64,000 nt of DNA from Leptolyngbya sp. 'hensonii'. GTDB lineage: Bacteria > Cyanobacteriota > Cyanobacteriia > GCF-001939115. The notes below the pieces were generated by a model that saw only the letters and a program-made list of their open reading frames with translations, made no database searches and was not told the DNA's origin. The stretch is taken from positions 1 to 64,000 of the forward strand of contig NZ_MQTZ01000020.1 of NCBI RefSeq assembly GCF_001939115.1, given 5' to 3'. Positions 1 to 7,737 of this stretch are shown here, in pieces; the first letter of the stretch is position 1; each line of letters begins with the position of its first letter. The translations under genes and the position numbers were made by a program.

Positions 1-644
1 AAGCGACGGGCCTGACCTGTCAATCGCCGCAGTTGCTTAACATCAGCCTCGGCAGGAGAATCTGCGCCATGCTGGTAAGAGAAGCTGCCCAAATTCCAGA
101 CGCCGTTACCAGGGTCGCGATGACCATAGTAGGCCCAGGTTCTGCCCCCATCGGGAGTGCGTGTCCCCTCTGCTGCGCCCACGGCCTTTGCCACCAGGGA
201 GAAGGACCCGCCCTGAAACAGCAGGTCGAGGTCTATGACAGAGGGGGGAGCCTGCGCTTGAGCCATACTGTAAACCTGAGATTTGGCCTCAGATGGGGAG
301 GTTGTTTTCCCATGTGGACTGGTGGGGAGGGAGGCCAGATTGAAATCCAGATCGATCGAAGTGGGAACAGATTGGCCCTGCTGACGTTGATCTTGGGAAC
401 GGTGCTTCTGATGACTGAAGCTACCCTTGGTCCCAGAGGTGGAGATGGGGGACTCTTGGCCAAGGATAACAGAGGCATCTTTGGCCAGACCAAAATGGAG
501 GTGACTATCCTCCAGGCTGCTGGATTCTGCCTTAACTGGAGTGCCCGCCAGTAAGCCAATTAGGCTGACGACGGGTAAGATAGGCAGGTTCTCAAGCCAG
601 TTTTCGATCAGAAGTTCTGGCTCCTCTCTGTCTGTTGCATTCAT
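1..644 (-). CDS. Unrecognised cyanobacterial protein, C-terminus beyond window edge
   Basis: I read this frame directly; it is open from an ATG at 644 to the window edge, so about 214 residues are visible and the C-terminus is missing. The start overlaps the stop of the upstream gene as ATGA (641-644). Residues about 20-40 form a weak hydrophobic stretch (LPILPVVSLIGLLAG) that could be an anchor or signal. A low-complexity Ser/Gln-rich linker follows. Near residues 145-190 lies a conserved-looking block with FSLVAKAVGAAEGTR, TWAYYGHRDPGN and WNLGSFSYQHG. The AxxxxEGT pattern loosely recalls lysozyme-fold glycosidases, but that is only a suggestion. The codon use and unbroken overlap with the neighbour support a real gene. 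The function is not recognised. Confidence 0.75.
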   Translation of the reverse strand, partial: MNATDREEPELLIENWLENLPILPVVSLIGLLAGTPVKAESSSLEDSHLHFGLAKDASVILGQESPISTSGTKGSFSHQKHRSQDQRQQGQSVPTSIDLDFNLASLPTSPHGKTTSPSEAKSQVYSMAQAQAPPSVIDLDLLFQGGSFSLVAKAVGAAEGTRTPDGGRTWAYYGHRDPGNGVWNLGSFSYQHGADSPAEADVKQLRRLTGQARR

Positions 645-1105
645 GGTTTTGTTAAGGTGCGCTCCAGAATATTGCGGGATGGTTCCACGAAAGACCAGGT
701 TCCGCCTGGCTGTTTCCTCAGGGTTGCAAATTGCAGGTATTCGCCGGAGCCGATCGGCTGACCCGATTCCACGCCTCCCAGTTGGGGCCGCTTGAGCCCA
801 CAGAGGCGGAACAGGTAGGCAGGGACTTCGTCACTCGAAAAGACGACACAATCACTGCGAAAAGGTTGAACCTGGCCATTAAAGGGGGCATAGATCGTGT
901 TTCCTTTCAGCTCGATCGAGATATCTCCCAATCCTCCAATCACAGCATATTTCCCAACTCTGTCACCTGGTTGCAGTTCCCAGGTTTGAGTCAACCGGAT
1001 ATTCCGCCTTTCTACTTGGGTTTCTGGTTGGCAACCGGCACGGACCAGGACAAAGACCACAACAATCAAGCCCAGTCTAATGAGAGCTGAGCTGATAGCC
1101 CGCAT
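641..1105 (-). CDS. Membrane-anchored hypothetical protein of the left-edge cluster
   Basis: This encodes 154 residues from the ATG at 1105, chosen because GAGGGA lies about 8 bases upstream; in-frame ATGs at 1111 and 1120 are alternatives. The N-terminus (IRLGLIVVVFVLVRAGC) is one membrane helix ending in a cysteine. The position -3 residue is Arg, so it is not a canonical lipobox. The rest is predicted beta-rich: repeated glycines, then IYAPFNGQV and SGQPIGSGEYLQFA. This layout resembles a barrel-sandwich or M23-like fold but lacks the metal-binding histidines, so no enzymatic role is claimed. It overlaps the upstream gene by 29 bases and shares ATGA with the next gene, so the five genes are probably one transcription and translation unit. 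Confidence 0.7.
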   Translation of the reverse strand: MRAISSALIRLGLIVVVFVLVRAGCQPETQVERRNIRLTQTWELQPGDRVGKYAVIGGLGDISIELKGNTIYAPFNGQVQPFRSDCVVFSSDEVPAYLFRLCGLKRPQLGGVESGQPIGSGEYLQFATLRKQPGGTWSFVEPSRNILERTLTKP

Positions 1106-1463
1106 ATTCATTTCCCTCATAAAGAATCACAACCCAGGTTTGAGGGTCAAATTCAAGCGGGTAAGCTTCCCTCTCAGCTGTTGCACCAGCCCGAATTTCC
1201 AGGCTGGGTAGTTCACAGTAAGGCTCTTTCAAGATGGCCCGAACTTTCTGCTTTTTATCCCGTTCTGGAATGGTCAGCAGTTTAGCCAGTTGCTGCCTGG
1301 AGATGGCAGCTTTGGCCTGGACAACTTGTTGACATTCTCGTCCTGGGTTTTTCGTTTTCACCACATCTTGCAAATCAATCAGCAGAAAAAGAGCGGCCAG
1401 CATCGAGCCACCAGCCAGGACAGGATTTAGCCTGGAACGTTGCTGCGGCTCGTGTTGAGTCAT
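1077..1463 (-). CDS. Single-pass membrane hypothetical protein
   Basis: This encodes 128 residues from the ATG at 1463. A strong ribosome site (GGAGGAG) lies about 6 bases upstream, and the start overlaps the stop of the 28-residue gene (ATGA, 1460-1463). A longer reading from 1559 would overlap that small gene completely and is rejected. There is one N-terminal transmembrane helix (PVLAGGSMLAALFLLIDL), then a charged region containing SRQQLAKLLTIPERDKKQKV, and a C-terminal segment with WVVILYEGNEYAGYQL. The LTIPERDKK stretch recalls a small winged-helix or anchor segment, but I cannot name a family. It belongs to the overlapping membrane-protein cluster and probably acts with its neighbours at a membrane. 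Confidence 0.72.
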   Translation of the reverse strand: MTQHEPQQRSRLNPVLAGGSMLAALFLLIDLQDVVKTKNPGRECQQVVQAKAAISRQQLAKLLTIPERDKKQKVRAILKEPYCELPSLEIRAGATAEREAYPLEFDPQTWVVILYEGNEYAGYQLSSH

Positions 1464-1546
1464 GCCTGATCTCCTCCTCCCACCATCAGGGCTAGACTTC
1501 CTATTACCAGGAGCAGCCAGGCTCCACCAAAGATAAGAATCGTCAT
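1460..1546 (-). CDS. 28-residue single-helix membrane micropeptide
   Basis: This is a very small gene: ATG at 1546, TGA at 1460-1462. The product is 28 residues, nearly all one transmembrane helix (ILIFGGAWLLLVIGSLALMV) followed by GGGDQA. Support is threefold. GGAGGAA sits about 5 bases before the ATG. The ATG overlaps the stop of the 430-residue upstream gene as ATGA. Its own stop overlaps the start of the downstream gene the same way, and its last codons supply that gene's ribosome site. It is probably a small structural subunit of a membrane complex formed by this cluster. It could alternatively be a coupling leader without a protein function. Confidence 0.65.
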   Translation of the reverse strand: MTILIFGGAWLLLVIGSLALMVGGGDQA

Positions 1547-2835
1547 AGTCTTCCTCCAAGTACTAAACCAATGAGTATAAGTAGAAGCCGATAGCCCAAA
1601 ATTCGGCCCGATCGGGCCATCAAGGTAATTTGGTAGGTGGCAATAATCACTGGGGTCACCAGCAATAGGACGATCGGTGGCCAGAGGCTGGGGTTTGCAC
1701 TCAAAATGACCTGAAGCCCTAATCGAAGTCCTCCGGCCACAGCAATCCAGAGTGCTGCATCGGTGATCAAGGCTGGAAAGCTGCGAGGGGGGCATAGCAG
1801 ACTTCTGAACCAGCGAGAATAACGTCGGGGTGCCTGCTTCCGGCTGGGCTGCTCTACAGGATGGGTTGGAGCAGTTTTACCGGTAGAAGCAGCACCCGTT
1901 CTGGGCTTTGAGGGTCGGAGGGGAGAGGCTGATGCTGGACGTTTGACGGATGGCTGCCCCGTCCGGCGATTGCGGAGAAACTGAGCCGTTGAAGCCGCAT
2001 CCCGCTCTGCCTGTAGTAAGTCCACCCGCTTGGAGGCCAGTTTTAACCGACCATCCCGATGCTGTTTGATGTAAGGCAGGTTCACTGATGAACCCTCCAA
2101 GACGTTGGGAGGTTGCCCTGATGACATGTCTTCGCCAGATTCAAGGGCCTGACGCAGGCGACTGACGGTAACGGATAAGCTCCGTAACTCAATCATGGCC
2201 ATTTCTAAATTGGCTGAGAGCTGGTTAACATGCTGGACTTGTGCTTCCAGATGTTGCAAACCCCCACTCAATTGCTGATGCAGGGCCTCTGGTGAAGTCT
2301 GTGGGTGGGGTGAGGGAGAGAGTTCTGCTTTTTGCTCTGATCTTGGCTTTGCGGGTGGGGCAAGCTTAGGGCTTGTCGTCTGTCCGGATCTGGCAACGGC
2401 TTTTCCAGAAGCCGATTGCGGAACAGCCTGCCCGGGCCGATGTGGAGAGCTAAATTGGGGGAGTTGAATTTCTTTGGGTTTAGGAGCCTCTAGGGGGGCT
2501 TGAGAGCGCTGCAGGTCTTCCATCTTAATTGTGGAGCGCTGCCGTTGATAAGGCTGGAGCAACTCCTGAGCCGTTGATGGGGTTGGCTTCCTGTTTTTGG
2601 GAAGGGCTCCCTCCTCAGATCGGGGTGAGATGCTCTGATCCTGTTCGCTGGTGAAGATGGTGTTCTCTTCCTGAGAGAGGACTTTCTGATCCGCTTGATC
2701 CTCCGCAGCCAATTTCAGGAATCGATCGAGTTGAGTCCGCCCCATTGGTTTTTGCCCTGGGTGACTTGATCGGGTGGCGGGAGCTTTAGAAACCTGGGGG
2801 TTTAAGGTCTCATTTCTCAGGGTCTTGGTGCTCAT
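1543..2835 (-). CDS. Large hypothetical protein with C-terminal membrane helices
   Basis: This encodes 430 residues and is the first gene of the left-edge cluster. Residues 1-185 are low-complexity, rich in Ser, Pro, Gln and Lys. Residues about 185-240 form a coiled coil (LQHLEAQVQHVNQLSANLEMA). A short conserved block includes NLPYIKQHRDGRLKLASKR. After a basic proline-rich linker, the last 90 residues carry about three transmembrane helices (ALITDAALWIAVAGGLRLGL, PPIVLLLVTPVIIATYQI, LGYRLLLILIGLVLGG). The topology suggests a long cytoplasmic arm anchored by a C-terminal membrane domain, like a scaffold or tether. No enzymatic motif is visible and the family is not recognised. Four heptamer repeats lie just upstream of the ATG. 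Confidence 0.75.
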   Translation of the reverse strand: MSTKTLRNETLNPQVSKAPATRSSHPGQKPMGRTQLDRFLKLAAEDQADQKVLSQEENTIFTSEQDQSISPRSEEGALPKNRKPTPSTAQELLQPYQRQRSTIKMEDLQRSQAPLEAPKPKEIQLPQFSSPHRPGQAVPQSASGKAVARSGQTTSPKLAPPAKPRSEQKAELSPSPHPQTSPEALHQQLSGGLQHLEAQVQHVNQLSANLEMAMIELRSLSVTVSRLRQALESGEDMSSGQPPNVLEGSSVNLPYIKQHRDGRLKLASKRVDLLQAERDAASTAQFLRNRRTGQPSVKRPASASPLRPSKPRTGAASTGKTAPTHPVEQPSRKQAPRRYSRWFRSLLCPPRSFPALITDAALWIAVAGGLRLGLQVILSANPSLWPPIVLLLVTPVIIATYQITLMARSGRILGYRLLLILIGLVLGGRL

Positions 2836-6696: not shown

Positions 6697-7575
6697 CTAC
6701 TCAAACCCCTTTTCTCGCCAAGGTACCGGGTCTACACAGAGGCCATTGACATAAAGCCCCCAGTGCAGGTGCGGCCCTGTTACGGCTCCGGTAGCACCTA
6801 CAGCACCAATTCTCTGACCCGCCTGCACGAAATCCCCTTCCTTTACATTAATTTGACTGAGATGCAGGAAAATACTGACTACCCCCTGACCATGATCAAT
6901 TCCTATCGTATTGCCATGGATCTCAAATCCTTGAGATTCTCGACCGATCAGGGCAACCCGCCCAGAAGCCGGAGCAACAATGGGTGAACCAGTGCCACCA
7001 GCATAGTCTACTCCACGATGGAAGTAATCTTTAGCGAAAACTCCATTGTAGTAACGACGAATGCCATAGACCGCCGTAATTTCACCCTGATTGGGGCGCT
7101 TGAAAGGACCAGTCCAATATTTCTCAGGTGTCACTAGGGCTTTAAACGCAGCGACTCGATCGAACTCATAGTCGGTCCCCAACTTATCTTTGCCAGGGGG
7201 CAACCAGATCCGCTGAGTAGGAAATGAGCGGTTTTTGAGGTTGACAGTAAGCTTCTGCGTTTCAGCTCCAGTTATCACTTGGAGATTGAGTGCCCCAGCC
7301 TGATCCAGCGGAGTGGTGGGGAGCAGCGATCGAAAGCGATTGGCTCCCATCGGAAAAGCAGGATAGGTCTTTTTCCCCAGGGTCACAGTGGGTTTGGTGA
7401 TGGTAGGGTCTTCGACCTGGAAAACCACAGAGATGGTGTCACCCAGCCGGGGGGCAGAGGGCATCGTCTTCACCTGTAACGCCCGTAAGGGCTGGGCCAG
7501 TAAAATCAGGCAGGCAATACCCAGGAATAAGAGGACTGGAAAACCAAGTTTCAGGCGTTTTAGAAGTGGAGTCAT
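6697..7575 (-). CDS. M23-family metallopeptidase (peptidoglycan hydrolase type)
   Basis: This encodes 292 residues from the ATG at 7575; a TTG at 7593 is an alternative. Residues 11-30 form a signal or anchor helix (GFPVLLFLGIACLILLAQPL). Residues about 35-115 look like a beta-sandwich domain. The C-terminal M23 (LytM/lysostaphin) domain has its zinc ligands intact: HRGVDYAGG (His186, Asp190) and GPHLHWG (His271), with the extra conserved FLHLS (His238). It is expected to cut peptidoglycan cross-bridges in the periplasm, or to regulate amidases. All catalytic residues are present, so it is probably an active enzyme. Confidence 0.93.
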   Translation of the reverse strand: MTPLLKRLKLGFPVLLFLGIACLILLAQPLRALQVKTMPSAPRLGDTISVVFQVEDPTITKPTVTLGKKTYPAFPMGANRFRSLLPTTPLDQAGALNLQVITGAETQKLTVNLKNRSFPTQRIWLPPGKDKLGTDYEFDRVAAFKALVTPEKYWTGPFKRPNQGEITAVYGIRRYYNGVFAKDYFHRGVDYAGGTGSPIVAPASGRVALIGRESQGFEIHGNTIGIDHGQGVVSIFLHLSQINVKEGDFVQAGQRIGAVGATGAVTGPHLHWGLYVNGLCVDPVPWREKGFE

Positions 7576-7737
7576 AGAAGCTGATTTAAGCAAAAGCTAT
7601 CACTATTGCTAAGAATTATCCTTCCAAAAAATGCTTTTGAGTGGTGAAGCAGTCACGAAGTAAAGTTCGTTTTCTTCTTACCTGGATATTCCTAATACTC
7701 CGGATCATCCTGCCCCCGCCAGCGAGAAAACTCTGTA

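Follow-up and report, generated by a model that had tools for sequence, protein, structure and literature searches.

Five minus-strand open reading frames at the start of a contig of Leptolyngbya sp. 'hensonii' overlap head to tail and, in the reading that we favour, probably encode an envelope-anchored peptidoglycan-remodelling module that is carried on the chromosomes of a subset of mostly filamentous cyanobacteria. The stretch of DNA analysed here, referred to as the window, comprises the first 64,000 nucleotides of the contig (C20:1-64000; genome size 5.94 Mb), and the five genes, named G1 to G5, are laid out as follows:

G1: 2835-1543, minus strand, 430 aa
G2: 1546-1460, minus strand, 28 aa, with an ATGA overlap with both neighbours
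G3: 1463-1077, minus strand, 128 aa
G4: 1120-641, minus strand, 159 aa counted from the first ATG
G5: 644 to 1, minus strand, 214 aa, cut by the contig start and incomplete

Consecutive frames share 4, 4, 29-44 and 4 bases. The first-pass annotation had described three ATGA junctions and one 29-base overlap. The three junctions can be read directly from the sequence (1546-1543, 1463-1460 and 644-641), while the length of the overlap between G3 and G4 varies with the choice among three closely spaced ATGs as the start of G4 (44, 35 or 29 bases), the value of 29 corresponding to the third. To follow the gene order across cyanobacteria, 80 loci surrounding the G5 domain were retrieved from named genomes, and the order G1-G3-G4-G5 was found on one strand in 43 of them. 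The named hosts are mostly filamentous cyanobacteria of the Leptolyngbyaceae, Nodosilineaceae, Oculatellaceae and Pseudanabaenaceae type. The order is kept in many families. A pattern in which the neighbours differ in all relatives was also looked for; instead, relatives retain G1-(G2)-G3-G4-G5, and it is the flanking genes that vary.

The distribution of the individual genes tells the same story. G3, G4 and G5 occur in 98, 97 and 103, respectively, of 242 genomes of the class; all three are present in 95 (the core genomes) and none in 137, and their pairwise co-occurrence is highly significant (Fisher p below 1e-55, for 242 genomes that are not phylogenetically independent). In a phylum-wide sample of 194 genomes, G4 was detected in only seven, all belonging to the class of the window. 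G3 and G4 are moreover fused into one protein at several loci (L053-L055, L070, L075 and L077). The recurrence of the order in 43 loci and the co-occurrence of G3, G4 and G5 indicate that the overlapping arrangement is not due to chance and, together with the fusions in several lineages, support the earlier proposal that the genes encode coupled subunits of one complex. The family defined by the transmembrane (TM) region of G1 is present in 88 of the 242 genomes; G1 was not found in ten core genomes, which implies that the module can work without it; among the ten are G020, G050, G074 and G085, where a G3-G4 fusion is seen or is suggested by the length of the frame. There are also G5 copies that occur by themselves. 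Searches of Pfam, NCBIfam and PDB sequences with the five window proteins returned nothing useful, the PADLOC anti-phage defence models did not match the relatives of G1, G3, G4 or G5, and our literature searches found no paper on a G1-G5 operon.

Upstream of the operon lie genes that we read as a MoxR-type ATPase and RibF. In another family (L037 and L038), RibF and MoxR also precede the operon, with a response-regulator-like gene inserted, a case of partial local synteny. The G1 start is preceded, at a distance of about 28 bases, by a perfect tandem repeat of the 12-mer AGGTTGTCACTA (two copies, 2863-2886), a possible regulatory site, and an ordinary M23 peptidase gene (6697-7593; E 4.5e-30) is found about 4 kb upstream of the operon. 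At the opposite edge, window positions 1-245, which cover part of the EGT-domain region of G5 on the minus strand, are 99% identical to a segment of another contig of the same genome (G000:C17:9988-10232) that sits within an intact, 411-aa G5 paralogue with a different N-terminus; either gene conversion has taken place recently, or the assembly was broken or joined at a repeat here. A second G3-G4 pair, unaccompanied by G1, G2 or G5, is present on a third contig (L005; G000:C43, about 96,390-97,250) and, with the G5 copy on C17, gives this genome a split second set.

The first of the families that the first-pass annotation left unrecognised is that of G4, which combines a TM or lipobox anchor with a degenerate M23/LytM domain bearing two invariant cysteines (C91 and C107) and a conserved core (GD.(V/I)AG...GGLGD.SI.....YAPF.G.V in the alignment). 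Since many members carry a lipobox-like Cys, G4 may be a lipoprotein rather than a single-pass protein. A Pfam search with G4 gave no match, and neither did a direct hhalign comparison with a general cyanobacterial M23 alignment give a significant one, so that the link to M23 rests on intermediates. One of these is a 501-aa protein (L065, in genome G188) in which an M23 domain (Pfam 8.9e-7) is followed by the same EGT domain that is found in G5; G4 aligns with this M23 domain with an E-value of 1.3e-9. Another is encoded on a plasmid of Leptolyngbya boryana (L201), where an EGT gene lies three genes downstream of it. This second M23 domain is canonical, keeps the metal ligands (HNGVD, HLHF) and matches ordinary cyanobacterial M23 sequences with an E-value of 2.9e-15, and G4 aligns with it over the whole domain (hhalign probability 98, E 2.6e-14; score 83.6, compared with at most 22.7 in 200 shuffles). 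These comparisons indicate that G4 is homologous to M23 through intermediates. The metal ligands themselves are missing from G4: the His/Asp segment falls in a gap of the alignment, and the HxH motif reads LQF, or LHF at most. With that segment deleted and HxH lost, G4 is best described as a pseudo-M23 (LytM) domain and, judged from its residues, is not a peptidase. An additional profile match of G4 to designed 'Cake' beta-propellers was discarded as an additive repeat artefact, each repeat scoring an E-value above 100.

G5 consists of a signal-peptide-like N-terminus, a low-complexity linker and a 170-residue EGT domain. The linker contains repeated [L/V]xFx[L/I] motifs, of the LxFxL type in the window; in operon-linked G5 proteins 85 are seen, against 16.6 +/- 4.0 in shuffled sequences, for a motif that was picked after inspection. 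The conservation of the EGT-containing domain, already noted in the first-pass annotation, is confirmed by an invariant signature (AEGT...H.DPGN...N.G..S.Q), the window copy being incomplete. An AF2 model of the domain (pLDDT 95.3) has as its top PDB matches lysozymes, muramidases, lytic transglycosylases and GH46 chitosanases, led by P22 lysozyme (Z 8.4), a GH46 chitosanase (8.2) and an Acinetobacter baumannii prophage muramidase (8.1), and further including MltF, MltE and the muramidase domain of SpmX; Z-values of 7-8.4, for this domain as for G3, are at a middling level that can reflect a common arrangement. Foldseek gave no hit against the PDB below an E-value of 0.001. In the model, Glu31 ends the first long helix, as does the invariant Glu of GH24 phage lysozymes, GH46 chitosanases and MltE/MltF, whose overall fold is shared, and Asp49 follows 18 residues on, a spacing that we take to be that of GH46 chitosanases. 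Both residues are invariant in 63 EGT sequences, including those of phage endolysin type, and are retained in the window G5 (P0005) as E159 and D177. In contrast to these known enzymes, the EGT domain has a signature of its own (H.DPGN..N.G..S.Q) and no significant sequence match to them: a Pfam scan of the 63 members gave no lysozyme-type match (SLT, GH24, GH46), the PHROG models gave no lysozyme match, and in the alignment rows inspected the GH24 catalytic spacing (E-8x-D/C-5x-T) is absent, there being no conserved Asp or Cys at E+9. The modelled fold, with its moderate Z-values, thus places the EGT domain in the lysozyme superfamily as a putative new family that is absent from Pfam and PHROGs. 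At one locus (L053:5743-7530), a G5 homologue is extended at its N-terminus by an NlpC/CHAP-like region (DUF1287, E 2.8e-4, below the cut-off).

Outside the operon, the EGT domain occurs in phages and plasmids. In a Microcoleus phage array it lies between amidase and LD-endopeptidase/M23 genes, and it is also part of a giant phage tail-type protein that includes an endolysin segment. On viral contigs (L154-L156, L159 and L160), on plasmids (L198 and L201) and in genomes (L065, L202 and L203), EGT is either fused to M23 or next to it. A provirus-like region (L061:1039-8499; G124:C29) encodes a phage-tail-like protein of 2486 aa, within which an EGT domain is embedded, adjoined by an 833-aa protein with an M23 domain. 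In the tree, which has long branches, most of the phage and plasmid copies linked to M23 fall outside the chromosomal copies, while some viral copies nest among host copies; the domain has been transferred between phages and hosts. The M23-EGT lysins of Microcoleus phage My-WqHQDG, the Leptolyngbya sp. BL0902 plasmid and the L. boryana plasmid have the same EGT domain beside or fused with M23, but the M23 domain keeps its metal ligands (in L. boryana), whereas that of the operon is dead and split off as G4.

If EGT catalysis had been lost, G4 and G5 would both be pseudo-enzymes forming a structural scaffold that anchors the envelope or septum to peptidoglycan, a function that has been proposed for other lysozyme domains, the muramidase domain of SpmX among them. 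G4 is clearly dead, SpmX is among the structural matches of EGT and the GH24 spacing motif is missing, all of which would suit such a scaffold; we nevertheless regard it as unlikely, given that Glu31 and Asp49 are invariant in all 63 sequences, phage endolysin types included, and that the phage copies lie in lytic arrays.

G3 is composed of a TM anchor and a domain with two invariant cysteines (C44 and C83). Modelled alone, because a joint G3+G4 alignment to the fusion had misplaced its last strand, this domain adopts an alpha-alpha-beta4 arrangement (pLDDT 91), the best matches being BamE (Z 7.1; 68 residues, 2.8 A) and BLIP (Z 7.0), both below Z 8. The BamE profile (PF04355) did not match the window G3 and produced only weak partial hits in relatives (0.048 in one fused relative). 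G3 may share with BamE/OsmE and BLIP the predicted fold, which serves protein contacts, but differs from them in its TM anchor, its two invariant cysteines and the lack of a BAM context. G1 looks disordered, with a long Pro/Ser-rich N-terminal part, a coiled-coil segment and a C-terminal hydrophobic region with three TM helices (by inspection) that ends in a conserved GYRLLL..GL.LGGRL; it is probably a coiled-coil scaffold with three TM helices, in keeping with the scaffold-like protein with C-terminal helices initially proposed. G2 is a 28-aa single-TM microprotein whose relatives carry the motif LGAAWLLxV. It is lineage-restricted, with homologues in about 8-9 of 45 loci plus both loci of genome G023, and seven of the eight listed homologues begin at an identical position, -4 behind G1.

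These small proteins, and the viral copies of EGT, could also be accommodated by a phage lysis cassette that has been domesticated to serve programmed lysis or the fragmentation of trichomes, with G5 as the endolysin, G2 as a holin-like peptide and the BLIP-like G3 as an inhibitor holding G5 off until it is required. EGT is indeed found in phages with M23, some viral copies nest among host copies and the predicted fold of G3 resembles BLIP inhibitors. Such a cassette nonetheless appears quite improbable to us: most loci have no G2, the signal-peptide-like N-terminus of G5 means that no holin is needed, a G3-G4 fusion is more in line with a structural partner than with an inhibitor that can be released, and the tree does not separate phage-to-host from host-to-phage transfer. 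Secretion- or conjugation-type machines typically include lysozyme-fold enzymes that clear the wall and have M23 or NlpC partners, and the L065 and BL0902 plasmid homologues do have small genes around them and a putative NTPase nearby, but a VirB1-like role for G5 in such a machine is very improbable, as there is no ATPase, pilin or secretin beside the chromosomal operon in the nine neighbourhoods listed and it is flanked by housekeeping genes that are unrelated to it and vary from lineage to lineage.

We return to the peptidoglycan-remodelling module. What computation shows is a conserved gene order, genes that co-occur and are in places fused, assignments of fold and homology, the disappearance of the M23 ligands from G4 and the persistence of the invariant Glu and Asp in G5; we infer enzymatic activity, partners, a contact between G4 and G5, a topology and a role in the filament wall, which would fit together as follows. 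G5 would be exported, its lysozyme-like EGT domain probably cleaving glycan strands, while the dead LytM protein G4, tethered to the membrane on the outside, probably binds G5 and activates or positions it. G3 would be a bitopic partner of G4, the two being fused in some lineages; G1 probably serves as a cytoplasmic coiled-coil platform whose C-terminal TM helices link the module to the cytoplasm; and G2 would be an accessory TM peptide in some lineages.

A direct precedent is provided by Caulobacter crescentus, where DipM, through its inactive LytM domain, binds the soluble lytic transglycosylase SdpA and stimulates it (PMC10336132), the same pairing of a dead M23/LytM domain with a lysozyme-superfamily peptidoglycan enzyme as in G4-G5. 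The best reading, by analogy, is that G4 may control a muramidase-like G5 as DipM controls SdpA, a putative role consistent with the co-operonic arrangement, the co-occurrence and the M23-EGT fusions in relatives. The two systems differ in that DipM is soluble and has LysM domains, whereas G4 is membrane- or lipid-anchored, very degenerate and co-operonic with its enzyme and with G3, G1 and G2; EGT is not a member of the SLT family by Pfam. EnvC and NlpD similarly have a small LytM domain that has lost its M23 metal ligands, and an envelope location, but they activate amidases, of which the G1-G5 operon has none, and G4 lacks the whole His...Asp segment.

The role of the module may be tied to the wall architecture of the filament, that is, to the septum, cell separation or trichome breakage. 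HetR, which belongs to a proposed core set for filament formation with Synechococcus PCC 7335 as an exception (PMC2821919), was taken as a filament marker; it is present in 92 of the 95 core genomes and in 30 of the 147 others, an association whose significance is inflated by the relatedness of the genomes. The operon is confined almost wholly to HetR-positive, filament-type genomes, the window's own not among them: G000 gave no HetR match (PF03574) although it is 99.98% complete. Given this relatedness and the missing match, we treat the filament link as a lead rather than a result. More tentatively, the operon could be an undescribed morphogenetic machine of filamentous cyanobacteria that arose from a phage- or plasmid-type pair of M23 and muramidase lysins, the peptidase having lost its activity and turned into a tethered regulator. 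In lineages that do not form heterocysts, such a machine would cut the wall, septal or lateral, to shape the filament, separate cells or break trichomes.

How the shared septal wall of filamentous cyanobacteria is perforated, split or kept is known mainly from heterocyst formers, through amidases and septal junctions. For a different group of filamentous lineages, the operon supplies a concrete wall module that can be tested, and it suggests a means of cutting or remodelling the cell wall that has not been described before. It is also a clear example of how a catalytic M23 partner has become a co-operonic pseudo-enzyme. Because it also occurs in cyanophage lysis arrays, the EGT family may in addition serve as a laboratory tool for cyanobacterial walls.
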